Positions 17,391-39,334 of a stretch of DNA of 64,000 nucleotides are shown piece after piece. Origin of the DNA: Geodermatophilus sabuli (GTDB lineage: Bacteria > Actinomycetota > Actinomycetes > Mycobacteriales > Geodermatophilaceae); the NCBI RefSeq assembly GCF_900215145.1, contig NZ_OBDO01000004.1, forward strand, positions 310,001-374,000, in the 5' to 3' direction. A program made the position numbers and the translations under genes. Position 1 is the stretch's first letter. Every line of letters starts with the position of its first letter. A model generated the notes under the pieces. That model was not told where the DNA came from, did no database searches, and was given only the letters and a program-made list of their open reading frames with translations.

Positions 17391-17492
17391 CGTGCCGCGC
17401 AGCTCCCTGCCGCTCCAGGACGTCGCCAACACCGCGCCCCTCCCCCATCGGGACGGCCGCTGGTGGGCGACTGCCCACGTCAGGGGGCCGAA

Positions 17493-17508
17493 GTCCCCCC
17501 TCGGACAC
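17493..17508 (+). repeat. Dispersed hairpin repeat, copy A (core only)
   Basis: The core GTCCCCCCTCGGACAC is followed by CGAGT and then by the long hairpin at 17514-17547. It lies about 100 bases past the luxR stop. The copy at 55071-55090 also has CGAGT after the core, so the two form a subtype. Confidence 0.6.
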
Positions 17509-25250: not shown

Positions 25251-26246
25251 TCACGCACCGTCTGGGACGCGGAACCGCTGCCGGTAGGACGTCGGAGTGG
25301 TGGCGTAGGCCGCGGTGAAGTTCTGACGGAGGGTCACGGCACTGCGGAAGCCGCAGGCGCGTGCTGTCCGCTCGATCGACCAGGTCGTGGTCTCCAACAG
25401 CCGCCGGACCTCCTCGAGTCGCTGGGTCAGGATCCAGCGGGCAGGGGTGGTCCCGACCGCTTCGGTGAACCGGCGGGTGAAGTTGCGCCCGCTCATCCGG
25501 GCGTGGCCGGCCAGCTGCTCGACGGACAGGTCCCGGTCGAGGTTGGCCAGCGCCCATTCCATGGTCGCGCCGATCGGGCCCACTCCACCCGGCTCGGGCA
25601 CGGGCCGCTGGACGAACTGCGCCTGGTCCCCGTCGCGATGCGGCGCCACCACCAGGTGCCGGGCGAGCGTGTTGGCCGCAGCGCTTCCGAGGCGGGTGCG
25701 GACCACGTGCAGGCAGGCGTCCAGGCCCGAGGCGGTGCCGGCCGACGTGAGGACGTCGCCGTGGTCGAGGTAGAGGGCAGAAGCGTTGACCTGCACCGCG
25801 GTCCGACGCTGCTGCAGCAGCGGTGCCGCCGCCCAGTGCGTGACGGCGCCCCGGCCGTCGAGGAGCGCGCTGTCCGAGACGGGGAACGCGCCCAGACACA
25901 GACCGACGACGGTCGACCCGCCGGCGTGCGCACGGCTGACCACGTGCACCAGTTCGTCGCCGGCGCGCGGGAGATCAGCGGGCCAGGAAGGCAGCACCAG
26001 GATGTCGGCGCCCGGCACCACCTCGGGTCCCGCGACGTCCTCGACGCGCAAGCCCTCAGCCGTGCGGATGCCGCGCCCGTCCTGCGTCCACACGCGGGTG
26101 CGCCAGCCGGGCGCCAGGCCGAGCCGCGACACCTCACCGAACACCAGCAGAGGTGTGGCCAGGTGGAACATCGTCATGCCGTCGAAGGCATGCACCGCGA
26201 TCTCCACGCTTGTCCTGATCTCATCGTTCATCGTCTCGCCTGCCAC
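25251..26246 (-). CDS. GlxA-type AraC family regulator with DJ-1/PfpI domain
   Basis: The 331-aa protein has an N-terminal DJ-1/PfpI-like domain (about 10-180, with GLCLGAFPVSDS in place of the usual nucleophile elbow) and a C-terminal AraC helix-turn-helix pair (about 225-320: LSVEQLAGHARMSGRNFTRRF, ARACGFRSAVTLRQNF). GlxA-type regulators sense small molecules. GTG 26246 or ATG 26231, the latter preceded by AGGCGAG, could be the start. It is divergent from the isochorismatase-family gene, 68 bases away, and is the likely regulator of it. Confidence 0.87.
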   Translation of the reverse strand: MAGETMNDEIRTSVEIAVHAFDGMTMFHLATPLLVFGEVSRLGLAPGWRTRVWTQDGRGIRTAEGLRVEDVAGPEVVPGADILVLPSWPADLPRAGDELVHVVSRAHAGGSTVVGLCLGAFPVSDSALLDGRGAVTHWAAAPLLQQRRTAVQVNASALYLDHGDVLTSAGTASGLDACLHVVRTRLGSAAANTLARHLVVAPHRDGDQAQFVQRPVPEPGGVGPIGATMEWALANLDRDLSVEQLAGHARMSGRNFTRRFTEAVGTTPARWILTQRLEEVRRLLETTTWSIERTARACGFRSAVTLRQNFTAAYATTPTSYRQRFRVPDGA

Positions 26247-26314
26247 TCACGGTACGCCGGGAGCAGGCGGCAACCTGAAGGGCGTCACCGCCGCCCAACC
26301 AGGGAGAACGAGCC

Positions 26315-26956
26315 ATGTCCGCCCCCCGCCGCGCCCTCGTCGTCATCGACGTGCAGAACGACTACTTCGACGGACCGCTGGAGATCCAGTACCCGCCGCG
26401 TGAGGACTCCCTGGCCCGCATCGTCACCGCCATGGACGTTGCGGCGGAGCACGAGCTCCCGGTCGTCGTCGTCAGGCACGAGCTGCCTGACGGGGCGCCG
26501 GTCTTCGCGGCCGGTTCAACCGGGCAGGCGCTGCACCCGGACGTCGAGAAGCGGACGACGGACGCGTGCAAGCAGGTGACCAAGAGCAACGCCAGCGTCT
26601 TCTCCGGCACCGACGTCGCCTCCTGGCTCGCGGCCAACGAGGTCGACTGCGTCACGCTGGTCGGGTACATGACCAACAACTGCGTCATCGGCACCGCAGC
26701 CGCCGCCGAGGACCTGGGCATCGCCGTCGAGGTCCTCTCGGACGCCACCGGCGCCATCAACATCGTGAACGACGCCGGCAGCGCCTCCGCCCAGCAGGTC
26801 CATCAGACGCTCATGGCACTGCTGAACTCGAACTTCGCCGCCGTCGCCACCACCGCGACGTGGACCAGTGCCGTCGAGCAGGGTCAGGCCCTGACGGGCA
26901 GCGATCTCGGGACGTCCGCCGTCCAGGGCCGTGCCGCCTACGGCCCCACGCCGTAG
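26315..26956 (+). CDS. Isochorismatase-family cysteine hydrolase
   Basis: The 213-aa protein has VIDVQNDYF (catalytic Asp about residue 11), a lysine in TKSNASVFSGT near 90 and the nucleophile in YMTNNCVIGTA (Cys about 127). This triad defines the cysteine hydrolase branch that includes nicotinamidase and N-carbamoyl amidases; true isochorismatases lack the Cys. The substrate is probably an amide. AGGGAGA lies about 9 bases before the ATG. Confidence 0.87.
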   Translation: MSAPRRALVVIDVQNDYFDGPLEIQYPPREDSLARIVTAMDVAAEHELPVVVVRHELPDGAPVFAAGSTGQALHPDVEKRTTDACKQVTKSNASVFSGTDVASWLAANEVDCVTLVGYMTNNCVIGTAAAAEDLGIAVEVLSDATGAINIVNDAGSASAQQVHQTLMALLNSNFAAVATTATWTSAVEQGQALTGSDLGTSAVQGRAAYGPTP

Positions 26957-27364
26957 GCGCCTCCCCTGACGTCCGGGCGGTCGGTTCGTGAGGTCGCAGA
27001 CGTGTGCGGAAGCACCGTGTCCCCCCTCGGACACTCTCGCGCCCCAGTGCTCCTGCAGGTCAGGAGCCCGGGGCGTCTGCATGACGAGGCCACCCCGACC
27101 CCCAGCCGACGGCAGCGGGTCCGCAGCCGTTCGCCGGAGCCCACAGGCGCAGGCAAGCCGCATGCGCAGCGACGGCGAACCGCCCCGGACAGGGTGCAAT
27201 GGAGGTCGAGATGGTGGTCGACAATCGCCGTCTCGACCACTGCGGACGGTCCTGAACGCACCACCACGGTGGCGCGCCGAACCCCGGGAGGGCCCGTGCC
27301 CGTCGTCGCACCACCGTCGCAGGACGCGCTGGCAGTCCGCTCCGGATCCTCGGACCGGTGCCCT
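26957..27364. other. Convergent intergenic region with repeat copy C
   Basis: About 410 bases lie between two convergent genes. Repeat copy C (27002-27083) is its only recognised feature; the rest, 27090-27364, shows no gene. Confidence 0.5.
27002..27083 (+). repeat. Dispersed two-hairpin repeat, copy C
   Basis: GTGTGCG lead, hairpin 1 GTGTCC-CCCCTC-GGACAC at 27017-27034 (6-bp stem), hairpin 2 at 27040-27075 with outer CGCCCC/GGGGCG and inner GCTCC/GGAGC around loop TGCAGGTCA. It sits 46 bases past the isochorismatase-family stop, between convergent genes. Confidence 0.8.
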
Positions 27365-28528
27365 TCACTCGTAGTAGAGCTTCTGGGGCCCTGGGTACAC
27401 CCAGGACAGCGCGTCGCGCAGCCGGTCCCGCCAGTTCTCCCACGAATGGCCATCCCGGGCCTCCGTGTAGCGGACCTGCATGCCGGCGTTCTCGAACACG
27501 TGCACCATCGACCGGTTCGGCACGATCAGCTGCTCGTAGACGCCGCACGACATGAACACGCGGTCGGCGACGCAGCGCGGCTTGGCCCGGAACCGGTTCA
27601 CGAACTTCACCACCGGGTCGAAGGCCGGCCCGCCGCCGTGGTCGGTGCCGATGTCGGTGAACACGAACGACCCCGACATGAGCACCAGCGACCCGTACGT
27701 GTCCGGTGAGCGGTAGGCCGCCGACAGCGCAGCGACCCCGCCGAACGACGAGCCCAGGAGGCACCGGCCCGCCCGCTGCCCGACGAGAGGGAGCGACGAC
27801 TCCAGTTCCGGCAGCAGCTCCTGGGTGAGGAACCGGGAGTGGGCCGTGGAGTTCGCGTACTCGTCCAGGCGCTCGCCGGGGTGGGTGAAGGCGACCACGG
27901 TCTCCGCGACGTCCAGCCGGTGGATCAGGTTGTCCAGGACGGTCTTCATCGAGGCGTACTGCAGGAAGTCCCCGCCGTCGTGCACCACCAGCAGCGGATA
28001 GGACGCCGTCGGCCGGAACCGGGCCGGCAGGTACACCGTGACGTGCGCGTCGCGACCGAGCGCGCGGCTGCGCAGCACGAGCTCCTTGAGCTCGCCGGGG
28101 CGCGCCTCGGGATCCGGAAGCACCCAGTCCGGCGTCTCGTAGCCCGCTGCGAAGCAGACCGACGACGAGCCCATGGGGCTGTGCGACCGCTTCTCGTTGA
28201 GCGGGTCGTTGAAGCGCTCGTAGTGGTCGCCACGCCGGATCTCGATCTGGTACTCGACCCGCGAGCCCTCCGGCAGCTCGAGCACCAGCTGCCACAGGTC
28301 GGTGCCGCGCAGGCGGCGCAGCGGGATCCGGTCGGGCAGCCCGACGATCCGCTGGCAGACCCACGCCTCGTCGGCCTCGCCGCGCCACAGGAAGGTGCAC
28401 TGGTCCCCCTCGACCACCGGGACCTCGTGCCGGCCGAGGAACCGGTCGACCGCCTCGGCGTCGAGGGGCTTCGCCGACTTGAGCCGGTTGATGGCCAGGC
28501 GCCCGCTCCCCGTCCGCGCCGCCGTCAT
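27365..28528 (-). CDS. Esterase, Fes/PF00756-like with N-terminal domain
   Basis: The 387-aa protein has an N-terminal immunoglobulin-like region (about 35-140; CTFLWRGEADEAWVC, YERFNDPLNEKRSH) as in enterochelin esterases, then an alpha/beta hydrolase: LLVVHDGGDFL near 195, nucleophile elbow LLGSSFGGVAAL near 270, and a late histidine in ARDGHSWENWRDRL near 365. Fes-type enzymes open ester or lactone bonds of peptide-like compounds. It overlaps the upstream S51 stop by ATGA. It is the last gene of the operon ATP-grasp 1, S51 hydrolase, esterase. Confidence 0.86.
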   Translation of the reverse strand: MTAARTGSGRLAINRLKSAKPLDAEAVDRFLGRHEVPVVEGDQCTFLWRGEADEAWVCQRIVGLPDRIPLRRLRGTDLWQLVLELPEGSRVEYQIEIRRGDHYERFNDPLNEKRSHSPMGSSSVCFAAGYETPDWVLPDPEARPGELKELVLRSRALGRDAHVTVYLPARFRPTASYPLLVVHDGGDFLQYASMKTVLDNLIHRLDVAETVVAFTHPGERLDEYANSTAHSRFLTQELLPELESSLPLVGQRAGRCLLGSSFGGVAALSAAYRSPDTYGSLVLMSGSFVFTDIGTDHGGGPAFDPVVKFVNRFRAKPRCVADRVFMSCGVYEQLIVPNRSMVHVFENAGMQVRYTEARDGHSWENWRDRLRDALSWVYPGPQKLYYE

Positions 28529-29451
28529 GCCGCCGCCCCCTCGGTGATCCGCCCGTCGTCCCCGACCAGCCGGACATCCGGTGGCAGGGCGCCGCCGGGG
28601 CCGAGGTCGAGCCGGACGCCGTCGTCCAGGACCAGGCAGGACGCCGGCGCGAACCGGCGGGCGAGCACCGACATCCGGGGGAGGTCGTCGGTCCGGAGCC
28701 GCCGCCGCGCGTGCGGCAGCACGACCGCCCCGGGGACGACGCCGAGGCCCGCATCGAAGACCTCGGTCAACGAGGCGCCCTGCGCCGCCCGGTCGTGGAA
28801 GAGCACCACCCGCGGCGCCAGCGCCATCGCCCCGGCCGACCACGCGACCAGCCGCGGCGGCAGGTGCGGCGAGAGGTGGAACAGGTGGAGGACGCGGAGC
28901 AGGTCACCGACGTGCCCACCGGCGACGACGAGGCACTCCGCCGTCGCCAGGAGCCCGCGGACCTCCTCGCGGTGCCCGGCGATCGGACCCCGCTCCTCCG
29001 GCCGCCACCTCGCGTAGAAGGCGCCGTGCAGCTCCTGCACCCGGGCCACGTGCGTCGCGTCGAGCAGCCGCACCGCCGCGAGCGCGTCCTCCAGCGCCAT
29101 GGCCTGGGTGTTCGCGTGCCCGTCCGGCCGGGCGGCCACCGCGGACACCGCCTGCAGGGCGTGGTCCAGCCGGATCAGGTAGAGCTGCTGCAGCTCGTCG
29201 AGCACGAGCCGGTGTTCGCGCTCGGCCGCGGCGTACTCCGGGTCGGCCCGCAGCACGTCCATCCAGCGGGCGAACAACCGCAGGTTCGTCGCCTCCCCAC
29301 CGGCCAGCGCGAGGATCTCGGCGTCGTCGGACTCCCGCTCCTGCCAGCCGGCGTTGACGACGGCCACCGGGCCACCGACACCCAGGGAGGACAGCACCCG
29401 ATCCAGGGTCGGCCGCCGCTGCGGGCCGAGCAGCGTGATCGAAGGGGTCAC
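28525..29451 (-). CDS. S51 (cyanophycinase/peptidase E-like) hydrolase
   Basis: The 308-aa protein has a class I amidotransferase-like fold with a serine elbow: AGGHVGDLL near 190, LVAWSAGAMALAPRVVLFHD near 220-240 (nucleophilic Ser in WSAGAM) and FDAGLGVVPGAVVLPHA with a histidine near 265. This matches peptidase S51, whose members cleave Asp-dipeptides or the storage polymer cyanophycin. A long inserted helical region (about 60-180) is unusual compared with PepE at about 230 residues. GTG 29451 starts 5 bases after the upstream ATP-grasp stop. It probably hydrolyses the product of the neighbouring ligases. Confidence 0.8.
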   Translation of the reverse strand: MTPSITLLGPQRRPTLDRVLSSLGVGGPVAVVNAGWQERESDDAEILALAGGEATNLRLFARWMDVLRADPEYAAAEREHRLVLDELQQLYLIRLDHALQAVSAVAARPDGHANTQAMALEDALAAVRLLDATHVARVQELHGAFYARWRPEERGPIAGHREEVRGLLATAECLVVAGGHVGDLLRVLHLFHLSPHLPPRLVAWSAGAMALAPRVVLFHDRAAQGASLTEVFDAGLGVVPGAVVLPHARRRLRTDDLPRMSVLARRFAPASCLVLDDGVRLDLGPGGALPPDVRLVGDDGRITEGAAA

Positions 29452-29456
29452 GGGCT

Positions 29457-30680
29457 TCAGCGGGCGTAGACGTGCACGGTGCGCCCGACGTCGTCGAGCA
29501 TCCCGCGCAGCGTGTCGAAGTCGGGGTGCCGCATGCGCACGTACGCGTTGGCCATGTAGCCGGCGGTCTCGGGCTGGGTCGGCGTCCCGGGCGGCGGCAG
29601 GTGCGCGTCCAGCACCCACTGCCCGTGCCGGGCCTGGATGTCGTCGACGCCCGAGTAGCCGGAGATGGTGCCGTCCCGCTCCGGCCGCAGGGCCACGATG
29701 CCGGCCGAGTACTGCCGCGACGGCTGCCCCCAGACCTGCCCGTGGACGATCGAGTCGGCCCACTGGCGGTAGATGTCGAGATCGTTGGCGGCCGAGTAGA
29801 GGTCCCAGGCGCCCACACCGGGCGGCCGGCAGCCGATCTCGCTGAACTTCAGCCCCTTCGGCCCGAAGAACCACTCCATGTGCGTGGCGCTGGTGCCGAT
29901 CCCGAGCGCCTCGTTGACCCGTCGCCCCAGGTCACGCAGCTCCTGGTAGTCGGCCACGGCGTCGATCCGGTTGGTCGCCACGAACTGCGGCGAGATCCAG
30001 CGGGTGCGCATCGCCTCGAGCACGTTCGGGAAGTAGTGCGACACGAAGTCCAGCGCCGGGACGCCGTCGACCGAGAGGGTGTCGTAGAAGCCCTCGTGCC
30101 CCTCGATGAACTCCTCGACGGCGATCGAGTCCACGTGCTGGCCGCCGAACACCGCCAGCGCCGCGTCCAGCCCGCCGTCGTCGTCGACCCGTGTGGTGTC
30201 GAGCGCGCCGGCGCCGGACCGCGGCTTGAGGATCAGCGGGTAGCCGACCTCGCGCGCGAAGGACCTCACCTCCTCGGCGTTGGACGCCGCGGTCGACGCC
30301 GCCGTCGGCACGCCGGCGTCCCGCAGCACCTGCTTCATCGACGGCTTGTCCCGGCACAGCCACGCCGTCCGCACCGACGTCCCGGGGATGCTGCAGTTCT
30401 CCCGCACCTGCGCGGCGGCCAAGGTGTGCGACTCGATGGTGGCCTCGAGCCGGTCGACCCAGACCTTGTCCTGGATCCACCGGACGGCGTCGGTCAGCGC
30501 GCCGGCGTCGGTGACGTTCGGGACGTGGTGGTAGTGCACCATCCACGAGCGCAGCTCGTCGTCCAGCCACTCCCCCGGGCGGTCGCCGACGCCGTAGACC
30601 GACGCCCCCACCTCGGCCAGCGCGCGCACGAAGTGGCGTTGCGTCGGCGGAAAGGCCGGATCGACGAAGACCACGTTCAT
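29457..30680 (-). CDS. ATP-grasp ligase 1 of locus B
   Basis: The 407-aa protein has a pre-ATP-grasp domain (MNVVFVDPAFPPTQRHFVRA), the ATP-binding lysine in GYPLILKPRSGAG near 146-158, a family segment HMEWFFGPKG near 290 and the metal-binding Glu in FSEIGCRPPG near 303. ATP-grasp enzymes form acyl-phosphates and then amides. HMEW(F/Y) and (S/G)E(I/V)(G/A)xRPPG are shared with the proteins at 30868 and 32120, so the three are paralogues. It is the first gene of a leftward operon; its start faces the 32-bp tandem repeats. Confidence 0.87.
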   Translation of the reverse strand: MNVVFVDPAFPPTQRHFVRALAEVGASVYGVGDRPGEWLDDELRSWMVHYHHVPNVTDAGALTDAVRWIQDKVWVDRLEATIESHTLAAAQVRENCSIPGTSVRTAWLCRDKPSMKQVLRDAGVPTAASTAASNAEEVRSFAREVGYPLILKPRSGAGALDTTRVDDDGGLDAALAVFGGQHVDSIAVEEFIEGHEGFYDTLSVDGVPALDFVSHYFPNVLEAMRTRWISPQFVATNRIDAVADYQELRDLGRRVNEALGIGTSATHMEWFFGPKGLKFSEIGCRPPGVGAWDLYSAANDLDIYRQWADSIVHGQVWGQPSRQYSAGIVALRPERDGTISGYSGVDDIQARHGQWVLDAHLPPPGTPTQPETAGYMANAYVRMRHPDFDTLRGMLDDVGRTVHVYAR

Positions 30681-30701
30681 GCCGGGGATGCTAGGAGCGC
30701 C

Positions 30702-30797
30702 GTGCCCGTCCCGCCCCTCGCACGCTCGGGGCGGTGCCCTTCCCGCCCCTCGCACGCTCGGGGCGGTGCCCGTCCCGCCCCTCGCACGCTCGGGGCG
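30702..30797. repeat. Three tandem 32-bp units, each with an inverted repeat
   Basis: Units at 30702-30733, 30734-30765 and 30766-30797 are nearly identical (one position differs in unit 2), and a fourth begins at 30798 but diverges after GTGCCC. Each contains CCGCCCC and GGGGCGG arms around the loop TCGCACGCTC. They lie in the 187-base region between two divergently transcribed ATP-grasp genes. Confidence 0.85.
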
Positions 30798-30867
30798 GTG
30801 CCCTGGGGGGACCCCGCCCCCTCCCACTGAACTGCCAGGTCGGCCCCTCCGGGCGTAGCGTCCGCTC

Positions 30868-32094
30868 ATGGTCGTCGCCGCGTTCGTCGCGCCGTACCTG
30901 CTGGAAGCCACGGCGCGATTCGTCCGGGTCGCCGCGGAGCTGCCGGGTGTCCGGATCGGCCTGGTGACCTGCGAGCCCGTGGACCGGATCCCCCCGGACC
31001 TGCGCGAGCGGCTGGCGGCGCACTGGCGGGTCGACGACGCGCTCGACCCGCGCCAGCTGGCCTGGGCGGTGTCCGGTCTCTCGGGGCAGCTGGGCCGGGT
31101 CGAGCGGCTGGTCGGTGCCCTGGAGCAGCTGCAGGTACCGCTCGCACAGGTCCGGGAGTCGCTCGGCATCGAGGGCATGGACGTGCGGACCGCGATCAAC
31201 GTGCGCGACAAGTCGCGGATGAAGGAGACGCTGCAGGCGGCTGGGATCCCGTGCGCGCGGCACGCGCTCGTGCGCAGCGCCGGGCAGGCCACGGCGTTCG
31301 CCGACCAGGTCGGCTTCCCGCTGGTCGCCAAGCCGCCGGCGGGCGCCGGTGCGCAGTCGACGTTCCGGCTGGACGACGGCGACATGCTCCGGGGCTGGCT
31401 CGCCGCCGTGCCGCTGGGCGAGGACTCCCCCGCACTGGTCGAGGAGTTCCTCACCGGCGAGGAGCACACCTTCGACAGCGTCACCCTCGGCGGGGCGACG
31501 GTCTGGTCGTCGATCGCGGACTACCGCCCGCCGCCGCTGGAGGTCCTGCGCAACCCGTGGATCCAGTGGACGGTCCTGCTGCCCCGCGACATCACCGGCC
31601 CGCGGTACGAGGGCATCCACCGGTGGGGGCCGGAAGCGCTCAAGGCGCTCGGAGTCACCGACGCGCTCACCCACATGGAGTGGTTCGCCCGGCCCGACGG
31701 CTCGGTGGCCGTCTCGGAGGTGGCCGCCCGGCCGCCCGGGGCGCAGTTGACCTCGATGCACGGATACGCACACGACTTCGACCTCTACCGCGCGTGGGCC
31801 GAGCTGGTGATCCTCGGCCGGTTCGACGCGCCCGAGCGCCGGTTCGCGTCCGGAACCGCCTACCTGCGCGGCATGGGGCACGGGCGGGTGCGCGCGGTGC
31901 ACGGCATCGAGGCGGTTCAGCAGCAGATCGGGCACCTGGTGGTGGAGGCGCGGCTGCCGCAGCCGGGACAGCCCGCCGCCACCGACTACCTGGGCGAGGG
32001 GTACGCGATGGTGCGCGACCCCGACACCGCGGTGGTCGAGGACGCGCTGCACCGGCTCGTCGACGGCATCCGCGTGGAGCTCGCCGAGGCCTGA
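30868..32094 (+). CDS. ATP-grasp ligase 2 of locus B
   Basis: The 408-aa paralogue of ligases 1 and 3 has the ATP-binding lysine in GFPLVAKPPAGAG near 150-162, VEEFLTGEEHTFDSV near 190, HMEWFARPDG near 270 and the metal-binding Glu in VSEVAARPPG near 283. The N-terminal 100 residues differ most from the other two, which suggests a different carboxylate substrate. It heads a rightward two-gene operon with ligase 3, 25 bases downstream. There is no strong ribosome binding site at the ATG. Confidence 0.87.
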   Translation: MVVAAFVAPYLLEATARFVRVAAELPGVRIGLVTCEPVDRIPPDLRERLAAHWRVDDALDPRQLAWAVSGLSGQLGRVERLVGALEQLQVPLAQVRESLGIEGMDVRTAINVRDKSRMKETLQAAGIPCARHALVRSAGQATAFADQVGFPLVAKPPAGAGAQSTFRLDDGDMLRGWLAAVPLGEDSPALVEEFLTGEEHTFDSVTLGGATVWSSIADYRPPPLEVLRNPWIQWTVLLPRDITGPRYEGIHRWGPEALKALGVTDALTHMEWFARPDGSVAVSEVAARPPGAQLTSMHGYAHDFDLYRAWAELVILGRFDAPERRFASGTAYLRGMGHGRVRAVHGIEAVQQQIGHLVVEARLPQPGQPAATDYLGEGYAMVRDPDTAVVEDALHRLVDGIRVELAEA

Positions 32095-32119
32095 CCATCC
32101 CCCAGCACCGGAGGTCGGA

Positions 32120-33331
32120 ATGAACGTCGTCATGCTCTCCCCCGGCTACCCGGCCGAGATGGCGTACTTCACCCGGGCGCTGGCCGGGACCGGCGCCCGG
32201 GTGATCGGGGTCGGCGACCAGCCGACGCACGCGCTGCCCGAGGCCGCCCGCTCGGCGCTCGCGCACTACGAGCACGTCAACCTCGCCGACGAGGGCGCGG
32301 TGCTCGACGGGCTGCGCGGGCTGTCCCGGCACGCCGCGCTCGACCAGGTGGAGTGCCTCTGGGAGCCCTACATGATCCTGGCGGCCCGGATCCGGGAGAC
32401 GTTCGGACTGCCCGGCCTCTCCGTCGAGCAGACGCTGCCGTTCCGCGACAAGGAGACGATGAAACGCACGCTCGACGCCGCGGGGATCCGCACCCCGTGG
32501 CACGTCAGCGCGCGCTCCGTGGCCGAGGTCTGGGCGGCCGCGGAGAAGGTCGGCTACCCGCTCATCGTCAAGCCGATCGCCGGGGCCGGCTCGGCCGACA
32601 CCTACCGGGTCGACTCCGACGAGGAACTCGGCGCGGTGCTCCCCCAGCTGCGGCACGTGCCCGAGGTCAGCGTCGAGGAGTTCGTCGACGGCGAGGAGTT
32701 CACCTTCGACACCATCTGCGCCGGCGGGCAGATCCTGTTCGAGCACGTGCTCTGGTACCGGCCCCGGCCGCTGCAGATGCGCATGCACGAGTGGATCAGC
32801 CCGGTGTCGATCTCGTTGCGCGACCTGTCCGTGCCGCACCTGGCCGGCGGTCGGCGGATGGGCGAGGCGGTGCTGGCCGCGCTCGGGTTCCGCTCGGGCT
32901 TCACGCACATGGAGTGGTACCTCAAGGGAGACGGCGAGGCCGTGTTCGGCGAGATCGGGGCCCGCCCGCCCGGCGCCCGCGTGGTCGACGTCATGAACTT
33001 CGCCACGGACGGCGACACCTACGCCGGCTGGGCGCAGGCCGTCGTCCACGGGTCCATGCAGCCGCTGGAGCGGAGGTACAACGCGGGGGCGATCTTCAAG
33101 CGGGCCCGCGGCGAGGGCCGGATCACCCACTCGGAGGGCCTCGACGCGCTGATGGGCCGGTACGGCGAGCACGTCGCGCTGCTCGACCTGCTCCCGGTCG
33201 GGGCGCCGCGCCGCGACTGGCGCTCGACGGTCACCGGCGACGGCATGGTCGTCGTCCGGCATCCCGAGCTGCAGCAGGTCATCGAGATGACCGAGGCGTT
33301 CGCCGGCGACTTCCAGATGTTCGCGAGCTGA
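32120..33331 (+). CDS. ATP-grasp ligase 3 of locus B
   Basis: The 403-aa protein has the N-terminus MNVVMLSPGYPAEMAYFTRA (very like ligase 1), the ATP lysine in GYPLIVKPIAGAG near 150, SVEEFVDGEEFTFDTI near 190, HMEWYLKGDG near 275 and FGEIGARPPG near 288. GGAGGTCG lies before the ATG. It ends 6 bases before the stop of the convergent esterase gene. Confidence 0.88.
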   Translation: MNVVMLSPGYPAEMAYFTRALAGTGARVIGVGDQPTHALPEAARSALAHYEHVNLADEGAVLDGLRGLSRHAALDQVECLWEPYMILAARIRETFGLPGLSVEQTLPFRDKETMKRTLDAAGIRTPWHVSARSVAEVWAAAEKVGYPLIVKPIAGAGSADTYRVDSDEELGAVLPQLRHVPEVSVEEFVDGEEFTFDTICAGGQILFEHVLWYRPRPLQMRMHEWISPVSISLRDLSVPHLAGGRRMGEAVLAALGFRSGFTHMEWYLKGDGEAVFGEIGARPPGARVVDVMNFATDGDTYAGWAQAVVHGSMQPLERRYNAGAIFKRARGEGRITHSEGLDALMGRYGEHVALLDLLPVGAPRRDWRSTVTGDGMVVVRHPELQQVIEMTEAFAGDFQMFAS

Positions 33332-33337
33332 AACCGG

Positions 33338-34063
33338 TCAGCAGAGCTCGTCGAGGTACTGCGGCAGCATCCGCCGCCAGGTCGGCCACTCGTGCGGCCA
33401 CTCCTCGCCCCACGCGTCGACCCGGTTCGGCACGCCCTTGCGGCCGAGCACGTCGCCGGCGTCCCACGAGGAGCCGACGTCCTCCCACGCCCCCTGGCCG
33501 GAGGCGAGGATCGCGAACCGGGTGCGCAGCACGTCGAGCTGCTCGCCGTCCATCCCGGGCAGGAAGTCCAGCGGCGAGGCGTGGAACAGGTCCTGCGAGT
33601 ACTGGCCGTCGAAGAACCGCTGGATCCGGTAGGTGCCGCTCATGCCCACGGCGGCGCCGAACACGTCGGGGAACCGGCAGAGCACCGCGAGCGCGTTGAA
33701 CGCCCCGATCGAGGCGCCCGCCGCCACGATCGGCGTCTCGGCCCCGCCCAGGTCGGTCCGGATCGCCGGGACCACCTCGTGCCGGACGCAGTGGTGGAAC
33801 TGGTTGAACAGCCACATCCGGTACTCGGGCGAGCCGGTCTTCGCCACCATCGCCCGGCCGGCGACGCTGTCGCACGAGTAGACCTTGATCCGCCCCGCCT
33901 CGATCATCGGCCAGCAGGCGCCGATCACCCCGTTGCGCTCGATCTCCTCGGCGTCCCCGCCCGCCGTCGGGAAGACCAGCACCGGGGTGCCGTAGTGCCC
34001 CCACCGGACCAGACCGATCGGCTGCTCCAGGCGCTCGGAGTACCAGCTGTCGGTCACCTTCAC
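33338..34063 (-). CDS. Esterase family protein (PF00756-like), second copy
   Basis: The 241-aa alpha/beta hydrolase has VLVFPTAGGDAEE near 31-43, nucleophile elbow AAGASIGAFNAL near 120, and a late segment GEEWPHEWPTWRRMLPQYL with histidine near 222. It lacks the N-terminal domain of the esterase at 27365. GTG 34063 is chosen because GGGTGG precedes it; 45 further upstream codons are basic and not conserved. It is divergent from the GCS2 gene (110 bases apart). The ester or amide substrate is unknown. Confidence 0.83.
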   Translation of the reverse strand: MKVTDSWYSERLEQPIGLVRWGHYGTPVLVFPTAGGDAEEIERNGVIGACWPMIEAGRIKVYSCDSVAGRAMVAKTGSPEYRMWLFNQFHHCVRHEVVPAIRTDLGGAETPIVAAGASIGAFNALAVLCRFPDVFGAAVGMSGTYRIQRFFDGQYSQDLFHASPLDFLPGMDGEQLDVLRTRFAILASGQGAWEDVGSSWDAGDVLGRKGVPNRVDAWGEEWPHEWPTWRRMLPQYLDELC

Positions 34064-34172
34064 GTCGTCCACCCTGGCACGGACGTCGCGGGGCGGCAGC
34101 CCGGCTGGGCTGCCGACCGGCCTGTTCCGTGCGAACCTGACCGCACCGGCCCGGTCACTGGAGGCGATCACC

Positions 34173-35651
34173 GTGGGCCAAGAGGTCGAGGCACGCACCT
34201 TCTCCCGTGATGACCGTCAGCGCTACCGGGAAAAGCTCCGGCGCTGCCTGGACGTGTTCGGCCGGATGCTCAACGAGTCGAGGTTCGACTTCGAGCGGCC
34301 GCTCACCGGCACGGAGATCGAGTTCAACCTGGTCGACGAGCTACAGGACCCGTCCATGCGCAATCAGGAGGTCCTGGCCGCCATCGCGGACGAGGTCTTC
34401 CAGGCGGAGATGGGGCAGTTCAACATCGAGATCAACGTGCGCCCCACCACGCTGGCCGGTGCGGCGGCCGCCGACCTGGAGGAGGAGCTGCGCGCGAGTC
34501 TGAACGAGGCCGAGGAGCGCGCGCGAGGGATCGGCGCGCACATCGTGATGGTGGGCACCCTGCCGACGCTGATGCCCCAGCACGTCACCGGGGCGGCGAT
34601 CACCACGCACCCGCGCTACGCGCTGATCAACGAACAGATCTTCGCGGCTCGTGGCGAAGACCTGCACATCGCGATCGACGGTCCGGAACGGCTGGACACC
34701 CATGCCGACACGATCGCCCCGGAGGCGGCCTGCACCAGCACCCAGTTCCACCTGCAGGTCAGTCCGCAGGACTACGCGGGGCACTGGAACGCGGCGCAGT
34801 GCATCGCCGGCGTCCAGGTGGCGTTGGGGGCGAACTCGCCGTTCCTGTTCGGCAAGGAGCTGTGGCGGGAGACCCGGATCCCGCTGTTCGAGCAGGCCAC
34901 CGACACCCGGCCGCAGGAGCTCAAGGAACAGGGCGTCCGGCCCCGGGTCTGGTTCGGCGAGCGCTTCATCACCTCGGTGTTCGACCACTTCGAGGAGAAC
35001 GTCCGCTACTTCCCCGCCCTGCTGCCGGTCTGCGACGAGGAGGACCCGGTGGCCGTGCTGGACCGCGGCGACGTCCCCCGGCTCGGCGAGCTGCGGATGC
35101 ACAACGGGACCATCTACCGCTGGAACCGCCCGGTGTACGACATCCACGACGGCAAGCCGCACCTGCGGATCGAGAACCGGGTGCTGCCCGCCGGGCCGAG
35201 CATCGTCGACGTGTTCGCCAACGGCGCCTTCTACTACGGGCTGCTGCGCACGCTGGCCACCCAGGACCGGCCGGTGTGGTCGCAGATGTCGTTCGCCACC
35301 GCGGAGGACAACTTCACGGAGGGCGCCCGGCACGGCATCCACGCCCAGCTGTACTGGCCGGGCCTGGGCACGGTGCCGGTCACCGAGCTGGTGCTGCGGC
35401 GGCTGCTGCCGATGGCCCAGCAGGGCCTGGCCGAGTGGGGCGTGGACACCGCGGTCAGCGACCGGCTGCTGGGCGCCATCGAGCGCCGCTGCACCGCCTA
35501 CCGCAACGGCGCGGAGTGGCAGGCCGAGACGTTCCACCGGATCGACGAGCAGCAGCAGCCACTGGACCGCCGTGACGCGCTGCGGGAGATGCTGCGCCGC
35601 TACAGCGAGCACATGCACGCCAACGTCCCGGTCGCCGACTGGCCCACCTGA
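34173..35651 (+). CDS. GCS2-family carboxylate-amine ligase
   Basis: The 492-aa protein belongs to the glutamate-cysteine ligase 2 family: LTGTEIEFNLVDE near 44-56, QFNIEINVRPTTLAG near 82-96, TSTQFHLQVSP near 190, NSPFLFGKELW near 220 and IENRVLPAGPSIVDV near 330. These enzymes join the carboxylate of glutamate, or a similar acid, to an amine. It is longer than and clearly distinct from the GCS2 domain of the 17732 fusion. The GTG start has GGAGG 9 bases upstream. It is monocistronic and ends at a bidirectional terminator. Confidence 0.87.
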   Translation: MGQEVEARTFSRDDRQRYREKLRRCLDVFGRMLNESRFDFERPLTGTEIEFNLVDELQDPSMRNQEVLAAIADEVFQAEMGQFNIEINVRPTTLAGAAAADLEEELRASLNEAEERARGIGAHIVMVGTLPTLMPQHVTGAAITTHPRYALINEQIFAARGEDLHIAIDGPERLDTHADTIAPEAACTSTQFHLQVSPQDYAGHWNAAQCIAGVQVALGANSPFLFGKELWRETRIPLFEQATDTRPQELKEQGVRPRVWFGERFITSVFDHFEENVRYFPALLPVCDEEDPVAVLDRGDVPRLGELRMHNGTIYRWNRPVYDIHDGKPHLRIENRVLPAGPSIVDVFANGAFYYGLLRTLATQDRPVWSQMSFATAEDNFTEGARHGIHAQLYWPGLGTVPVTELVLRRLLPMAQQGLAEWGVDTAVSDRLLGAIERRCTAYRNGAEWQAETFHRIDEQQQPLDRRDALREMLRRYSEHMHANVPVADWPT

Positions 35652-35662
35652 GGGCATGGAAC

Positions 35663-35718
35663 GGCCCCTCTGCAGGGGCCCGCCCCGAGCCTGCGAGCGG
35701 TGGGGGGCAGAGGGGTCC
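35663..35718. terminator. Bidirectional terminator hairpin
   Basis: GGCCCCT (35663-35669) pairs with AGGGGCC (35674-35680) around CTGC; alternatively GGCCCCTCTGC pairs with GCAGAGGGGTCC ending at 35718, leaving one bulge. It lies between the convergent stops of the GCS2 gene and ATP-grasp 4. Confidence 0.75.
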
Positions 35719-35720
35719 TC

Positions 35721-36971
35721 CTACCGGTTGAGGCGGTTCTCCTCGTCCCGCTTCCACATCTCGAGCAGCCCCCGGTAGTGCGCGATGAAGTGGTCGTGCT
35801 CGTGCGGGGGGAACGTGGACCGCACCGTGTCGACGAGGAGCCGGTCGAAGTCGGGACCGCGCACCCAGTCGAGCATGACCTCGTCGAGGTGCGGGAGCCG
35901 GCTGGCGCAGAAATCGGAGTAGGCCTCCGTCTGGAAGTACTCGTTCGCCAGCCCGCGGTAGGCCTGCAGCTTCTCCCCGTAGCTCAGGTCGGCCCGATCG
36001 GCGATGTCGAAGAACCGCCGGGTCTCGAGGTCCAGCCGCGGCCGGCGGCCGGTGGCCGTGCAGAACACCGACCACCGGATGAGCGCCTTGATGGCCCACG
36101 GGAAGTAGTAGTGCAGGCTGGTCAGCGCGATGTCGGGGCAGGCGTTGGCATAGTCGATCGGATAGACCACGCCGTCGCGGATGAGGGTCTCGCAGGAGTT
36201 GAACTCCCAGCGGAAGAACGCGTTCACCAGCTTGCCGATGGTGACCGTCTCCTCACCGGTGGCCGCGTCCAGGAAGCCGTGGGAGACCGAGTACCGGCCG
36301 TGCATCGGCTGGTCGGGGTCGAAGTTCATGACCATCGTCTCGGCGCCGATGGACAGGCTCCGCGCGAAGACGTCGTAGCCGGCCACCGCCTTCTGCAGGT
36401 GCATCAGGCGCTGCCCGGAGGCGTCGTACGCCCGCTGCAGCTCCTCGGGATTGCGGATCATCGTGACGCCCACCCACGCGCCCCCGTCGTACGGCTTCAT
36501 GAACAGCGGATAACCCAGGCGTTCGGCGATCGCCGCCAGGTCGAACGGCCGGTTGTACTTCTCCGCCGTGTACGCGTACTTGGCATGCTCGGGCGGGTTC
36601 TTGTACGGCACCAGCACCGTGTCCGGTACGCGCAGCCCCAGCCGCAGCATGGCGCAGTACGCCGCGTGCTTCTCCATGCTCTGGAAGGTGAAGGGGCTGT
36701 TGAGCAGGTAGACGTCGTCCATGAGCGCGGCCTTCTTCAGCCACTCACGGGGGTGGTAGTACCAGTAGGCCAGGCGGTCGATGACCAGGTCGTAGCGCGG
36801 CTTGGCGCACAGGTCGAACGGCTCGACCGTGATCCGCTCGACGTCGTACTGGTGAGCGGCGCCGGTCCCGTCGTGCACGGTGCCGAGGCGGCGCACGATC
36901 GCCTCGAAGGCGGTCGGCCAGTCCTCCTCGGTCCCGAGCAGCAACCCGATGAGGTGCTGGTGATCGGACAT
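35721..36971 (-). CDS. ATP-grasp ligase 4 of locus B (divergent type)
   Basis: The 416-aa protein has an ATP-grasp-like core: FDLAAIAERLGYPLFMKPYDGG near 146-167 (ATP lysine in MKPYDGG), then GVTMIRNPEEL, and YPIDYANACPD near 290 in the place of the metal-binding acid. It lacks the HMEW and RPPG signatures of ligases 1-3, so it is a different subfamily. The last 80 residues are helical and polar. GGAGGAG precedes the ATG. The M20 gene lies 68 bases upstream on the same strand, so they form an operon. Confidence 0.82.
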   Translation of the reverse strand: MSDHQHLIGLLLGTEEDWPTAFEAIVRRLGTVHDGTGAAHQYDVERITVEPFDLCAKPRYDLVIDRLAYWYYHPREWLKKAALMDDVYLLNSPFTFQSMEKHAAYCAMLRLGLRVPDTVLVPYKNPPEHAKYAYTAEKYNRPFDLAAIAERLGYPLFMKPYDGGAWVGVTMIRNPEELQRAYDASGQRLMHLQKAVAGYDVFARSLSIGAETMVMNFDPDQPMHGRYSVSHGFLDAATGEETVTIGKLVNAFFRWEFNSCETLIRDGVVYPIDYANACPDIALTSLHYYFPWAIKALIRWSVFCTATGRRPRLDLETRRFFDIADRADLSYGEKLQAYRGLANEYFQTEAYSDFCASRLPHLDEVMLDWVRGPDFDRLLVDTVRSTFPPHEHDHFIAHYRGLLEMWKRDEENRLNR

Positions 36972-37039
36972 CGACGCTCCTCCAACGGTGGCGGGGCCTC
37001 CCGCGTCGCTCCAGTGACCTGGGCGGACGCGGACGGATC

Positions 37040-38455
37040 CTAAGTCCGGCCCGGGATCCCTGCGAGTTCGCGCCAGAGGTGCGCGGCCGCCTCGGCCCCG
37101 CGGTGCAGCATGGGCAGCAGCACCCGCTCGTTGGGCGAGTGGATCCGATCGGTGGGCAGCCCCGCACCCAGGAACAGCAGCGGAGCGCCGAGTTGCTCGA
37201 CCAGGTCGGCCTCCGGTCCGCTGCCGCCCTCGCGCAGGTAGAGCACCTCGTCGGGATCGCCGTCCCAGGCCTGGGCGATCGCCCGCCGCAGGGCGGCCAT
37301 GCCGGGCGAGTCGAGGTCGCTGGCGCACGGCGCGACGCCGGCCTTCCCGATCAGCACCTCGGCGGTGACCCCCTCCGGCAGCCGCTGGTCGACCCAGGCG
37401 CGGACCTGGTCGGCGATGTCCGCAGGTGCCTGGTCGGCCACCAGCCGGAAGCTGATCTTCGCGTGCGCCTCGGCCGGGATGATCGTCTTGTGGCCCGGGC
37501 CCTGGTAGCCGCCCCACATGCCGTTGACCTCCGCGGTGGGCCGGGCGCCGGTCCGTTCCAGGGTGCTGAACCCGGCTTCTCCGTACGCCGCGGAGCCCGC
37601 CGCCGGCCCGGCCAGCCACGCCTGCTCGTCGAACGGCACGCGGGCCATGAGGTCGCGTTCGCGGTCGGACAGCGGGCGGACCTTGTCGTAGAAGCCGGGC
37701 AGCGTGACCCGGCCCTGCTCGTCGTGCAGGCTCGCCAGCAGCTCGGCCATGGCGTGCAGCGGGTTGGGCACCGCGCCGCCGAACGAGCCGGAGTGCAGGT
37801 CGACGGCGGGTCCGCGCAGGGTGATCTCGGCGCCGGCCAGCCCGCGCATCGAGACGACGGCGCTGGGGACGTCGGGTGCGGCCATCCCGGTGTCGCTGAC
37901 CACGACGACGTCGCAGTCCAGCCGGGCCCGCCGCTCCGCCAGCAGTGCGGCGAAGTGCCGCGACCCGGACTCCTCCTCGCCCTCGACGAGCAGTTTCACG
38001 GTCACGGCCGGGGTGTCCCGACCGGTCGCGGCCAGGTGGGCGCGCATGCCGAGCAGGTGCATGGCGACGTTGCCCTTGTCGTCGATCGCGCCGCGGGCGT
38101 GCAGCTCCGGGCCGTCCGGTCCTTCGACGACCGTCGGCTCGAACGGCGGGTGCACCCACAGCTCCAGCGGGTCCACCGGCTGCACGTCGTGGTGCCCGTA
38201 CACGAGCGCGACCGGGGCCCCGGGATCGCCCGACGGCCACTCGGCGTAGACCGCGGGCGCGCCGGGCGTCGGCCAGATCTCGACCGTGGGGAAGCCGACC
38301 CGGCGCAGCGCCTCGGCCAGCCACTCGGCGCTGCGGGCGACGTCGGGGGCGTGCGCGGGATCGGCGGAGATCGACGGGATCCGCAGCCAGGCGTCGAGAT
38401 CGGCGCGCAGGTCGTCGTGGCAGGCGGTCACGAACTCGCGCTCGGGGTTGGTCAC
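37040..38455 (-). CDS. M20 family metallopeptidase (dipeptidase type)
   Basis: The 471-aa zinc peptidase has LVYGHHDVQP near 90-99 (first metal ligands and catalytic Asp), GAIDDKGN near 125 (bridging Asp), LVEGEEESGS near 155 (catalytic and metal Glu), a dimerisation domain (about 200-330) and a C-terminal LREGGSGPEADL with IHSPNE for the last histidine near 440. Enzymes of this shape cleave dipeptides or deacylate amino acids. GTG start. It is first in an operon with ATP-grasp 4 and is intact, unlike the M20 gene in locus A. Confidence 0.9.
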   Translation of the reverse strand: MTNPEREFVTACHDDLRADLDAWLRIPSISADPAHAPDVARSAEWLAEALRRVGFPTVEIWPTPGAPAVYAEWPSGDPGAPVALVYGHHDVQPVDPLELWVHPPFEPTVVEGPDGPELHARGAIDDKGNVAMHLLGMRAHLAATGRDTPAVTVKLLVEGEEESGSRHFAALLAERRARLDCDVVVVSDTGMAAPDVPSAVVSMRGLAGAEITLRGPAVDLHSGSFGGAVPNPLHAMAELLASLHDEQGRVTLPGFYDKVRPLSDRERDLMARVPFDEQAWLAGPAAGSAAYGEAGFSTLERTGARPTAEVNGMWGGYQGPGHKTIIPAEAHAKISFRLVADQAPADIADQVRAWVDQRLPEGVTAEVLIGKAGVAPCASDLDSPGMAALRRAIAQAWDGDPDEVLYLREGGSGPEADLVEQLGAPLLFLGAGLPTDRIHSPNERVLLPMLHRGAEAAAHLWRELAGIPGRT

Positions 38456-38623
38456 GACCTCGGACCGTAGCCCGCTGCCGAGGACGTCCCGCTGCCGTCC
38501 ACCGCATACGGCGAACCACTGCCTTCGGGGGTGGTCACGGCACGTCGCTGCCGACGGTGATCGCTGCGAGCCGGCCACCGACGTCGACGACCCAGCGGTT
38601 CCGGTTGCGCTCACACACCTCGA

Positions 38624-38648: not shown

Positions 38649-38652
38649 AACC

Positions 38653-38684
38653 GTGTGCGTGTGTGGCGTGTCCCCCTCGGACAC
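38653..38684 (+). repeat. Dispersed hairpin repeat, copy E (hairpin 1 only)
   Basis: GTGTGCGTGTGTGGC lead, then GTGTCC-CCCTC-GGACAC at 38668-38684. Hairpin 2 is not recognisable. It lies 31 bases past the vapC stop. Confidence 0.7.
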
Positions 38685-38714
38685 CAGTTCGATGCACACC
38701 GATCGCCTCTGGCG

Positions 38715-39137
38715 CTACGCGGTTCCGCGTGGCAGCACCCATCGGTGCTCGAAGTCGAGGACCTCGGCAGCGATCTCGAAGTCGCTGTCGTAGTGCAGGA
38801 CCGTCGACCCGTGCTCGGCTGCCAGCACCGCGGTCAGCAGGTCGGCGACGCCGACCGCTCGATGCCGCCCCGTCCGAGCCAGGACGCGCTGCGCGTCGAG
38901 TGCACGCTGCCAGTGACCATCGTCCGTCGCCAGGTACTCGTACGCCTCGCGGCGGTCGGCCCGCACCTGCTCGTACTCACCCGGGCTGCGCGCGCTGTAG
39001 AGCGCCTCGGCATCCAGGGTGGCGCAGGTGGCCACCAGGCCGCCGGTGATCAGTGGCTCCAACCGCTCCGCCACGGCGGTCAGCCGCATCCGGGCCGCCG
39101 CGCTGGTGTCGATGAGGAACCGGGCGATCACCGCCAT
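38715..39137 (-). CDS. vapC: VapC-type PIN-domain toxin
   Basis: The 140-aa PIN ribonuclease has FLIDTSAAAR near 7 (first acidic residue), LDAEALYSAR near 41-50 (second), GVADLLTAVLAA near 95 (third acidic residue) and HYDSDFE near 114 (fourth). The four-acid constellation is complete, so it should be an active Mg-dependent endoribonuclease. Its start overlaps the antitoxin 3' end by 10 bases, the usual vapBC arrangement. Confidence 0.9.
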   Translation of the reverse strand: MAVIARFLIDTSAAARMRLTAVAERLEPLITGGLVATCATLDAEALYSARSPGEYEQVRADRREAYEYLATDDGHWQRALDAQRVLARTGRHRAVGVADLLTAVLAAEHGSTVLHYDSDFEIAAEVLDFEHRWVLPRGTA

Positions 39138-39334
39138 ACGTCAGCGCGCTGGCCCGGATCCGCCATGGCCTCGAGCCCACCCTCCCGCAGCCAGGCCACC
39201 TGCCGGGCGCGTGCGGCCGCGTTCGCCGCCTGCCGCAAGGCGGCGCGGACCGTGTCCGACACCCCAGTGGTGTTCAGCTCGCGTTGGGCCAGCGCCAGCA
39301 GCTCGTCATCCAGGTCGATCAAGCGCTTCGTCAT
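39128..39334 (-). CDS. vapB: VapB-type antitoxin
   Basis: The 68-aa protein has a ribbon-helix-helix start (MTKRLIDLDDELLALAQREL, then NTTGVSDTVRAALRQAA) and a C-terminal toxin-binding tail LREGGLEAMADPGQRADVW. This is the VapB type in which the tail blocks the VapC active site. GGGGGGAG precedes ATG 39334; the open frame further upstream crosses the operator region and is not coding. Confidence 0.9.
   Translation of the reverse strand: MTKRLIDLDDELLALAQRELNTTGVSDTVRAALRQAANAAARARQVAWLREGGLEAMADPGQRADVWR

Follow-up and report, generated by a model that had tools for sequence, protein, structure and literature searches.

Which pathway might be formed by nine adjoining genes of Geodermatophilus sabuli that combine several amide-forming ligases with esterases and peptidases? 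The genes occupy positions 27365-38455 of the window, i.e., the whole stretch of 64,000 nucleotides that was analysed. An earlier note, made from the letters alone, had described four ATP-grasp proteins (three of them paralogous, with HMEW and RPPG motifs), a GCS2 ligase, an S51 hydrolase, two esterases, and an M20 peptidase. All nine open frames were present, and every one of these assignments was confirmed:

27365-28528, minus strand: esterase 1, enterochelin-esterase (Fes) type serine alpha/beta hydrolase
28525-29451, minus strand: S51-fold serine hydrolase
29457-30680, minus strand: ATP-grasp ligase 1, L-amino-acid-ligase-like
30868-32094, plus strand: ATP-grasp ligase 2
32120-33331, plus strand: ATP-grasp ligase 3
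33338-34063, minus strand: esterase 2, alpha/beta hydrolase with G-x-S-x-G
34173-35651, plus strand: GCS2-superfamily carboxylate-amine ligase, divergent subfamily
35721-36971, minus strand: ATP-grasp ligase 4, RimK/LysX/ArgX-like fold
37040-38455, minus strand: M20 dipeptidase-type metallopeptidase

The genes of esterase 1 and the S51 protein overlap by 4 bases, and the gene map suggests about five transcription units, alternating between the strands, instead of one operon. All nine genes were also chosen by a codon-usage gene caller; this caller was first trained on the nine genes themselves, so that the independent support for the frames is their conservation. Pfam cut-offs were passed by both esterases, ligases 1, 3, and 4, the GCS2 protein, and the M20 peptidase, and were missed by the S51 protein (20.2 versus 23.9 bits, PF03575) and ligase 2; the latter two assignments were settled despite their low scores by the fold of the S51 protein and the paralogy of ligase 2. 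None of the nine proteins matched PADLOC at E 0.01, and a function in anti-phage defence was rejected. The reading favoured here, with a probability of roughly 0.5, is that the block constitutes a transferable cassette for building and breaking a short non-ribosomal peptide or amide.

A first line of evidence concerns ATP-grasp ligases 1, 2, and 3. These share the HMEW and RPPG motifs and display a mutual identity of 33-37% (ligase 2 being 33% identical to ligase 1 and 35% to ligase 3). They form separate clades with a support of 100/100 each in a tree that, like the conservation analysis, covered proteins above set lengths. Ligase 1 scored above the cut-off of PF02222 and ligase 3 above those of PF13535 and PF02655. 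The best PDB relatives of ligase 3 were the L-amino acid ligases 3vot (E 4.7e-17) and 4wd3 (E 3.4e-16), a relationship that extends to ligases 1 and 2 because they are paralogous to ligase 3. As far as sequence can tell, the three ligases are old paralogues whose nearest relatives are the L-amino-acid ligases. Residues K112, K116, E189, E190, H267, E269, E281, and R285 were invariant in 52 sequences of ligases 1-3, and K152 was kept in at least 95% of them; we take these to be the ATP-grasp catalytic residues. Ligase 1, with 156 invariant residues across 19 sequences, varies least within the core. The L-amino acid alpha-ligases of the BL00235, BacD, and TabS type likewise possess an ATP-grasp domain with H-x-E and E-x-x-x-R-x-x-G motifs, whereas the present block unites three old paralogues, known here by sequence, with dedicated hydrolases. 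Among 8000 scored candidates from public genomes and metagenomes, 7777 matched ligase 3 at E<=1e-20, a number to which its paralogues, and perhaps further ATP-grasp families, contribute.

The hydrolases encoded next to these ligases are of several kinds. The predicted model of the S51 protein has the cyanophycinase/peptidase E fold, into which a helical segment is inserted at about residues 59-170, and presents the protein as a divergent S51 relative by fold, not by curated Pfam score. Its S205, within an SAG motif, and H180 were invariant in 19 sequences, and H247 was found in 8/8 of A3; S205 is presumably the nucleophilic serine, and the conserved histidine presumably catalytic as well. Searches of PDB sequences returned no credible relative of the S51 protein or of esterase 2. 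Esterase 1 reached 91.1 bits with PF00756, its Enterochelin_N-like N-terminal part scored just under the cut-off, and S261 (G-x-S-F-G) and H361 were invariant in 19 sequences. Its nearest PDB sequence was enterochelin esterase 2b20 (E 2.3e-10). Esterase 1 thus shares with Fes the alpha/beta hydrolase and a weak Enterochelin_N match, but it fails the Fes equivalog NF007758 (97.2 bits versus a cut-off of 222) and no siderophore gene occurs among the nine. Esterase 2 scored 29.7 versus 22 bits with PF00756, and a relative of it directly follows a ligase-1/3-like gene on plasmids of Peptoclostridium, Sinorhizobium, and Pararhizobium.

The similarity of esterase 1 to enterochelin esterase would fit an unlikely alternative, namely that the ligases make a secreted, bioactive or metal-binding (depsi)peptide, from which the Fes-like esterases and peptidases free the metal or against which they protect the producer. 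The patchy occurrence of ligase 1 (10/112 genomes of the family) also agrees with such a natural product, as do ABC transporter genes close to the core, seen in two of 13 other gene-listed loci, where they adjoin ligase 4 (L134) or lie one gene from esterase 1 (L146). In addition, ATP-grasp ligases serve known NRPS-free peptide pathways, according to an excerpt of PMC12568646. However, protein-family profiles revealed no transporter, receptor, or carrier among the nine proteins, and the transporter genes of the relatives do not occupy a constant place. The absence of an exporter, as claimed before, hence holds for the block itself but not for the surroundings of L134 and L146.

The remaining enzymes are more loosely connected. 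Ligase 4 is no close paralogue of ligases 1-3 (best E 7e-5, 22% identity over 170 residues); its nearest folds are RimK, LysX, and ArgX, and it carries a C-terminal helical extension at about residues 318-415. Ligase 4 was matched at E<=1e-20 by 7998 of 8000 scored candidates from public genomes and metagenomes. It stands behind two esterases in 43/80 loci and is also part of a separate, commoner esterase module; this count retained esterase and M20 hits from 60 bits, GCS2 hits from 100 bits, and hits of ligases 1-3 from 150 bits, so that more divergent partners would escape it. A group of similar loci has glycogen/trehalose neighbours beside the ligase 4 module, presumably TreS, Mak, and PGM as named by eye from their sequences, and was set aside. 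Carriage on plasmids was rejected for ligase 4, which had no match in the plasmid collection. The GCS2 protein scored 33.1 versus 21 bits with PF04107 over its N-terminal part only, reached no NCBIfam cut-off, and had no credible relative in a PDB sequence search. The M20 peptidase scored 441.3 versus 441 bits with the NF006053 dipeptidase model and 423.9 versus 327 bits with NF006579, its sequence varying widely between loci (31-44% outside the nine-gene block). Elsewhere in the window, the small frames 22308-22538 and 22616-22891 look like M20 fragments by eye, with no Pfam match. Taken over the block, family, fold, and conserved catalytic residues back the ligase chemistry that was claimed for the ATP-grasp and GCS2 proteins and the hydrolase chemistry claimed for S51 and M20, as predictions.

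RimK, LysX, and ArgX act on protein carriers, as is partly apparent from their entry titles. The fold of ligase 4, together with its place behind two esterases, could therefore point to modification of a protein, peptide, or glycan, in which ligases 1-4 attach amino acids that the esterases, S51, and M20 remove. This explanation is rather improbable, as ligase 3 and, by paralogy, ligases 1 and 2 resemble ligases of free amino acids, and the block has no recognisable gene for a carrier or precursor.

A second line of evidence is the conservation of the genes as neighbours. Five genomes from four genera of the Geodermatophilaceae contain the nine genes in identical order. The DNA shared with a second Geodermatophilus genome (G004) is delimited as follows:

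27365..38517: DNA shared with G004 (blastn)

Identity amounted to 88-91% over 27365-30702, 30855-33342, and 33336-38517; outside this stretch only short matches were found, mostly repeats, and the flanking genes differed. The block flanks were unrelated in G004, G767, and G782, the block thus occupying differing genomic sites in relatives. Two genes of the window have counterparts (76-85% identical) at a distance of a few kb from the block in G727, where common descent may thus account for some of the neighbourhood. Ligase 1 occurs in ten genomes of the family, of which G746 was left out of the locus comparison. The core, consisting of ligase 1, S51, esterase 1, usually esterase 2, and the divergent pair of ligases 2 and 3, recurs in shuffled order in other classes of the Actinomycetota. 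Across 22 ligase-1 loci, which include the five copies of the nine-gene block, 21 had S51 and 20 had esterase 1; ligases 2 and 3 were present in 17 loci, esterase 2 likewise in a total of 17 (at only 31-33% identity in two cases), M20 and ligase 4 in 11 each, and GCS2 in six. Several loci are cut off by the end of a contig, which may inflate the number of absences; in L120 the ligase 1 match spans only 77 residues, L128 has ligase 1 in two pieces, and L133, for which the gene caller gave no genes, was assessed by tblastn only. L130, L131, and L154 appear to be duplicates of L080, L090, and L120, of which only L120 is among the 22. Three loci, L129, L148, and L150, yielded only ligase 1, S51, and esterase 1, which suggests that the other genes may be dispensable there; the contigs of two of these loci are 9.8 and 5.1 kb long. 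Among 292 evenly drawn Actinomycetota, ligase 1 (E<=1e-80) occurred in five, and S51, esterase 1, and esterase 2 were in the same locus in all five.

The genes thus stay together across genera and the core across classes, the reverse of what had been named as refuting the proposal. That the nine are chance neighbours out of separate pathways is very improbable: the approximately five alternating transcription units would allow it, as would GCS2 in three plasmid records with none of the other eight genes within 8 kb, but the block is conserved as a block amid unrelated flanks and its genes re-associate repeatedly in other orders. Because the block recurs as a block, the association goes beyond chance; a chance neighbourhood is refuted for the core and possible for GCS2 and M20, the looser partners of the core. 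The earlier idea of a nine-gene unit accordingly stands within the family, where the block is one conserved unit, but has to be revised for its composition, which is that of a core, a ligase 4 module, and the looser GCS2 and M20. Since GCS2 and M20 are missing from most loci outside the family, the nine genes are no indivisible pathway.

A third line of evidence concerns mobility, for which the following features are relevant:

30699..30823: REP-like palindromes of 32 bases in tandem, between the divergent genes of ligases 1 and 2
35673-35704: further 32-base REP-like copy
26998..27080, plus strand: degenerate att-like direct repeat left of the block, core GTGTCCCCCCTCGGACAC at 27017
38649..38692, plus strand: degenerate att-like direct repeat right of the block, core at 38668
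17491..17508 (C24:327491), plus strand: exact 18-base copy of the tRNA-Leu(GAG) 3' end

The REP-like unit was found at 17 places genome-wide with up to 2 mismatches, and its reversed control at none. The tRNA-Leu(GAG) gene lies on the same contig as the block (C24:210652-210737), with exact 18-base copies of its 3' end at 279911, 286947, and 327491 and a tyrosine recombinase (PF00589) at 223444; such copies in direct orientation, with a tyrosine recombinase nearby, mark a tRNA-anchored island array. A one-mismatch copy occurs on the other strand of another contig (C15). The block itself lies beyond the last exact copy, between the degenerate copies at 27017 and 38668, which are partial matches to the tRNA end. 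It is probably mobile island cargo between these copies; we infer the transfer itself, as well as an att-like behaviour of the degenerate repeats, from this arrangement. In G727, G767, and G782, no such bracketing repeats were found next to the block. Riboswitches or cassette-specific sites were rejected as explanations of the repeats, which share the tRNA-Leu 3' end instead. An RNA element was rejected as well, the window having no Rfam match at gathering scores and five folded repeat copies giving z-scores of -2.8 to +1.4 with no consistent structure.

Similar gene combinations are known. Neighbourhoods mixing ATP-grasp, GCS2, and hydrolase genes were reportedly described by Iyer and Aravind (2009), and the block, which has all three, is a variant of this already known kind of amidoligase neighbourhood. 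The NAGGN osmolyte trio (TIGR03103/03104/03106) also combines an ATP-grasp ligase with a peptidase and makes a small dipeptide. No member of this trio was found among the nine proteins (for ligases 1 and 3 and M20, among the best 25 matches listed), and a TIGR03104 gene lies separate from the block at 20271-22061. Cyanophycin clusters resemble the block in that an S51-fold hydrolase and a dipeptidase accompany an ATP-dependent amide ligase; cphA1 and cyanophycinase are clustered in 535/658 genomes, according to an excerpt of PMC10206079. That the S51 protein is a cyanophycinase of ordinary cyanophycin metabolism is nevertheless hardly credible. Indeed, none of the five block-bearing genomes has a cyanophycin synthetase (CphA1) over the 850-bit family cut-off, the best partial matches reaching 63 bits in G767 and 210-228 bits in the other four, where they ended at model position 475. 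Moreover, the block has small separate ligases, two esterases, a helical insertion in S51, and M20 in place of IaaA/IadA.

A cassette that builds and breaks a short peptide or amide could operate as follows. Ligase 1 would activate a carboxylate with ATP to an acyl phosphate and join it to an amine or amino acid, and the divergently transcribed ligases 2 and 3 would make two more, different joints. Esterase 1 and S51, from the operon of ligase 1, and usually esterase 2 would cleave two bonds of the product or of an intermediate, an ester and an aspartyl-type amide, and M20 would finish off the peptides. Where present, ligase 4 and GCS2 would add extra groups, perhaps glutamyl. In G. sabuli, the block would be cargo of the island array downstream of tRNA-Leu(GAG). 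The order of these steps, their direction (making or breaking), all substrates, and the ester bond are proposed from the enzyme families. The osmolyte, thiol, or storage compound that the earlier note suggested as the product is, in this reading, a conjecture. An argument against building and breaking is that a ligase and hydrolases expressed from one operon would undo each other's work unless they were regulated; the block contains no regulator gene. A bolder version, put forward tentatively at slightly below even odds, is a new class of ribosome- and NRPS-free oligopeptide pathway, in which three L-amino-acid-ligase paralogues, a RimK-fold ligase, and a GCS2 ligase work with their own S51, M20, and Fes-type hydrolases, as two recombining and spreading modules in actinobacteria, here in a tRNA-anchored array.

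In the open-access papers searched, titles and abstract beginnings mentioned neither the gene set nor a product or role of its ligases; thousands of predicted proteins match ligases 3 and 4, yet no product or role was found there. Because the block carries its own hydrolases, an annotation question becomes a question for the bench, and the block may add a class of actinobacterial metabolites as well as new amide-forming enzymes.

The nine genes that the earlier note had described as an amidoligase and hydrolase cluster, and proposed to build and trim a short peptide or amide, were confirmed as open frames in the window, at the positions it had assigned to them (27365-38455), and represent a real, conserved pathway block. 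All nine were picked by a codon-usage caller, which was trained first on these same nine genes and later on the whole window. Judged from the gene map, the block carries about five transcription units:

Unit 1, leftward: ligase 1 (L-amino-acid-ligase-like ATP-grasp), S51 hydrolase and esterase 1 (Fes-type), with a 4-base S51/esterase 1 overlap
Unit 2, rightward: ligases 2 and 3, paralogues of ligase 1
Unit 3, leftward: esterase 2
Unit 4, rightward: GCS2-family ligase
Unit 5, leftward: M20 peptidase and ligase 4 (RimK/LysX-like fold)

Protein families were assigned with Pfam and NCBIfam. The M20 protein passed the NCBIfam cut-offs of a dipeptidase equivalog (441.3 versus 441) and of a subfamily (423.9 versus 327); for the other eight block proteins, no NCBIfam cut-off was reached among the matches listed. 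Palindromic REP-like units occurred at window 30699-30823, as a tandem array separating the divergent ligase genes, and at 35673-35704, the unit being found at 17 genomic places with up to two mismatches.

Within the Geodermatophilaceae, ligase 1 (E<=1e-60) was present in 10 of the 112 genomes, one of which (G746) was left out of the block comparison. All nine genes, in identical order, were retrieved from five of the ten, namely the source genome (5.5 Mb across 25 contigs), G004 of the same genus, G727, G767 and G782, together covering four genera, and the block proteins of the other four were 81-97% identical to those of the window. A more distant form of six or seven genes was found in G745, G747, G748 and G749, within the extent of their contigs. 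Differences within the block were located between ligase 3 and esterase 2, where both G767 and G782 contained an additional predicted gene of about 300 codons and G004 a frame of 160 amino acids. The DNA of the window and G004 was 88-91% identical across 27365-38517, with only short matching stretches beyond. This identity alone is no proof of transfer, since the rpoB region of the source genome was also 93-94% identical to that of each of the other four. Nevertheless, the block is probably mobile. Its flanking genes in G004, G767 and G782 were unlike those of the window. G727 carried, 3-6 kb from the block and differently arranged, relatives of three window genes, namely of 15141-16127 (76% identical), of 16341-17390 (85%) and, more distantly (43%), of another. 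The distribution was patchy, with two carriers among 25 genomes from the genus, and the window grouped with G782, from another genus, and not with G004 in the trees of ligase 3 (100/95) and ligase 1 (99/89); in that of ligase 2, it grouped with G767, with weak support (89/26). It is from the differing flanks, the patchiness and the ligase 3 and ligase 1 trees that transfer is argued as the probable history of the block.

The block lies on contig C24 among repeats of a tRNA 3' end, which we read as a tRNA-anchored island array:

C24:210652-210737: tRNA-Leu(GAG)
C24:222394-224094: tyrosine recombinase gene, 12 kb from tRNA-Leu(GAG)
C24:279911, 286947 and 327491 (window 17491), one strand: exact copies of the last 18 bases of tRNA-Leu(GAG)
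Window 25179, 27017, 38668, 39442, 55749 and 60831, plus strand: looser copies of the tRNA-Leu 3' end
Window 51897: an example of the weaker copies

What the dispersed same-strand repeat shares with the 3' end of tRNA-Leu is CCCCTCGGACAC or a sequence close to it. Conserved flanks surround some of the copies, and the spacing between copies ranges from one to many genes. The nine genes were located between copies 27017 and 38668, one neighbouring interval being filled by a regulator/isochorismatase pair (25251-26956) and the other by a PIN-domain gene preceded by a small frame (38715-39334), these two resembling a toxin-antitoxin pair. Similar genes, without Pfam match, followed both tRNA-Leu(GAG) and the 279911 copy when compared by eye (L196-L198, C24:210652-287000). 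Two results count against the array reading: at three mismatches, a reversed control pattern gave 21 matches versus 22 for the true pattern, so that only low-mismatch copies count, and a one-mismatch copy was located on another contig, C15, on the opposite strand. The looser copies may represent true att sites. Beside the block, one degenerate copy was found in G004, 0.9 kb beyond esterase 1, and none in G727, G767 and G782.

Elsewhere in the window, an osmolyte-type system (17732-22061) begins just past the exact copy at 17491. In it, a fusion of GCS2 and circularly permuted ATP-grasp (852 amino acids) precedes an N-acetylglutaminylglutamine amidotransferase (TIGR03104; 937 versus 570 bits). 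Further on, an EgtC-like class II glutamine amidotransferase gene (22888-23721; under the EgtC cut-off) adjoins a gene (23847-24557) for a DUF1028 protein whose C-terminal part is a putative peptidoglycan-binding region.

Among 22 ligase 1 loci, five of which were the nine-gene block itself, the commonest partners were S51 (21 loci), esterase 1 (20), ligases 2 and 3 (17), and esterase 2 (17, two of them at just 31-33% identity). M20 and ligase 4 each occurred in 11, the six M20 proteins outside the nine-gene block being 31-44% identical, and GCS2 in six. In this sample, ligase 1 of L120 was a 77-residue match and that of L128 was split in two. An additional locus (L200) contained ligases 3, 2 and 1, S51 and both esterases. 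The smallest form, showing ligase 1, S51 and esterase 1 only, was that of L129, L148 and L150, of which L129 and L150 lie on short contigs. In a less biased sample of 292 Actinomycetota genomes, ligase 1 (E<=1e-80) was present in five, namely the source genome, G114, G124, G216 and G222, with S51 and both esterases at the same locus in all five, ligases 2 and 3 in four, ligase 4 in three and M20 in two. The gene order varied among these five, which favours function over inertia as the reason for the linkage.

Ligase 4 was commoner than ligase 1, being present in 24 of 296 Actinomycetota genomes (E<=1e-20) and in at least 532 stretches across named genome records. In the best 80 of these, which were examined, esterase genes lay immediately upstream on the same strand (two in 43, one in 21, none in 16), and GCS2 occurred in 15, ligases 1-3 in four and M20 in none at the bit limits applied; the flanks of this module differed from one locus group to another. 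On this comparative evidence, the block of the window joins two modules, the ligase 1 core and the ligase 4 module. The part of GCS2 is least certain, as it was found in Streptomyces, Tsukamurella and Nonomuraea records without the other eight genes within 8 kb. Furthermore, an esterase-2-like gene directly 3' of a ligase-1/3-like gene was found on Peptoclostridium, Sinorhizobium and Pararhizobium plasmids (26-33% identity), indicating that the pairing of ligase and hydrolase extends outside the phylum. On the Peptoclostridium acidaminophilum plasmid (L156, 6767-8732), this pair is flanked by annotated 3-deoxy-7-phosphoheptulonate synthase genes, one of the two being one gene away.

Small ATP-grasp ligases are described as forming amides via acyl phosphates (PMC12568646), and the operon that joins ligase 1 to S51 and esterase 1 would constitute a build-and-break set. 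Similarly, the cyanophycin system clusters a ligase with an S51-type hydrolase, cphA1 being reported together with cyanophycinase in 535 of 658 genomes (PMC10206079). However, no cyanophycin synthetase above cut-off was found in the five block-bearing genomes, so that the chemistry would run parallel to that of cyanophycin, in a separate pathway. The retention of two serine esterases across most of the 22 ligase 1 loci suggests an ester bond in the product or an intermediate, although such hydrolases may instead cleave amides or transfer acyl groups. The product may be an osmolyte, a reserve compound or a natural product, or the genes may serve in modification. Export of the product is possible, as ABC transporter genes lie close to the core in two loci (L134 and L146). 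The block, uncharacterised as far as shown by the open-access literature searched, is a variant of the already known amidoligase gene neighbourhoods.
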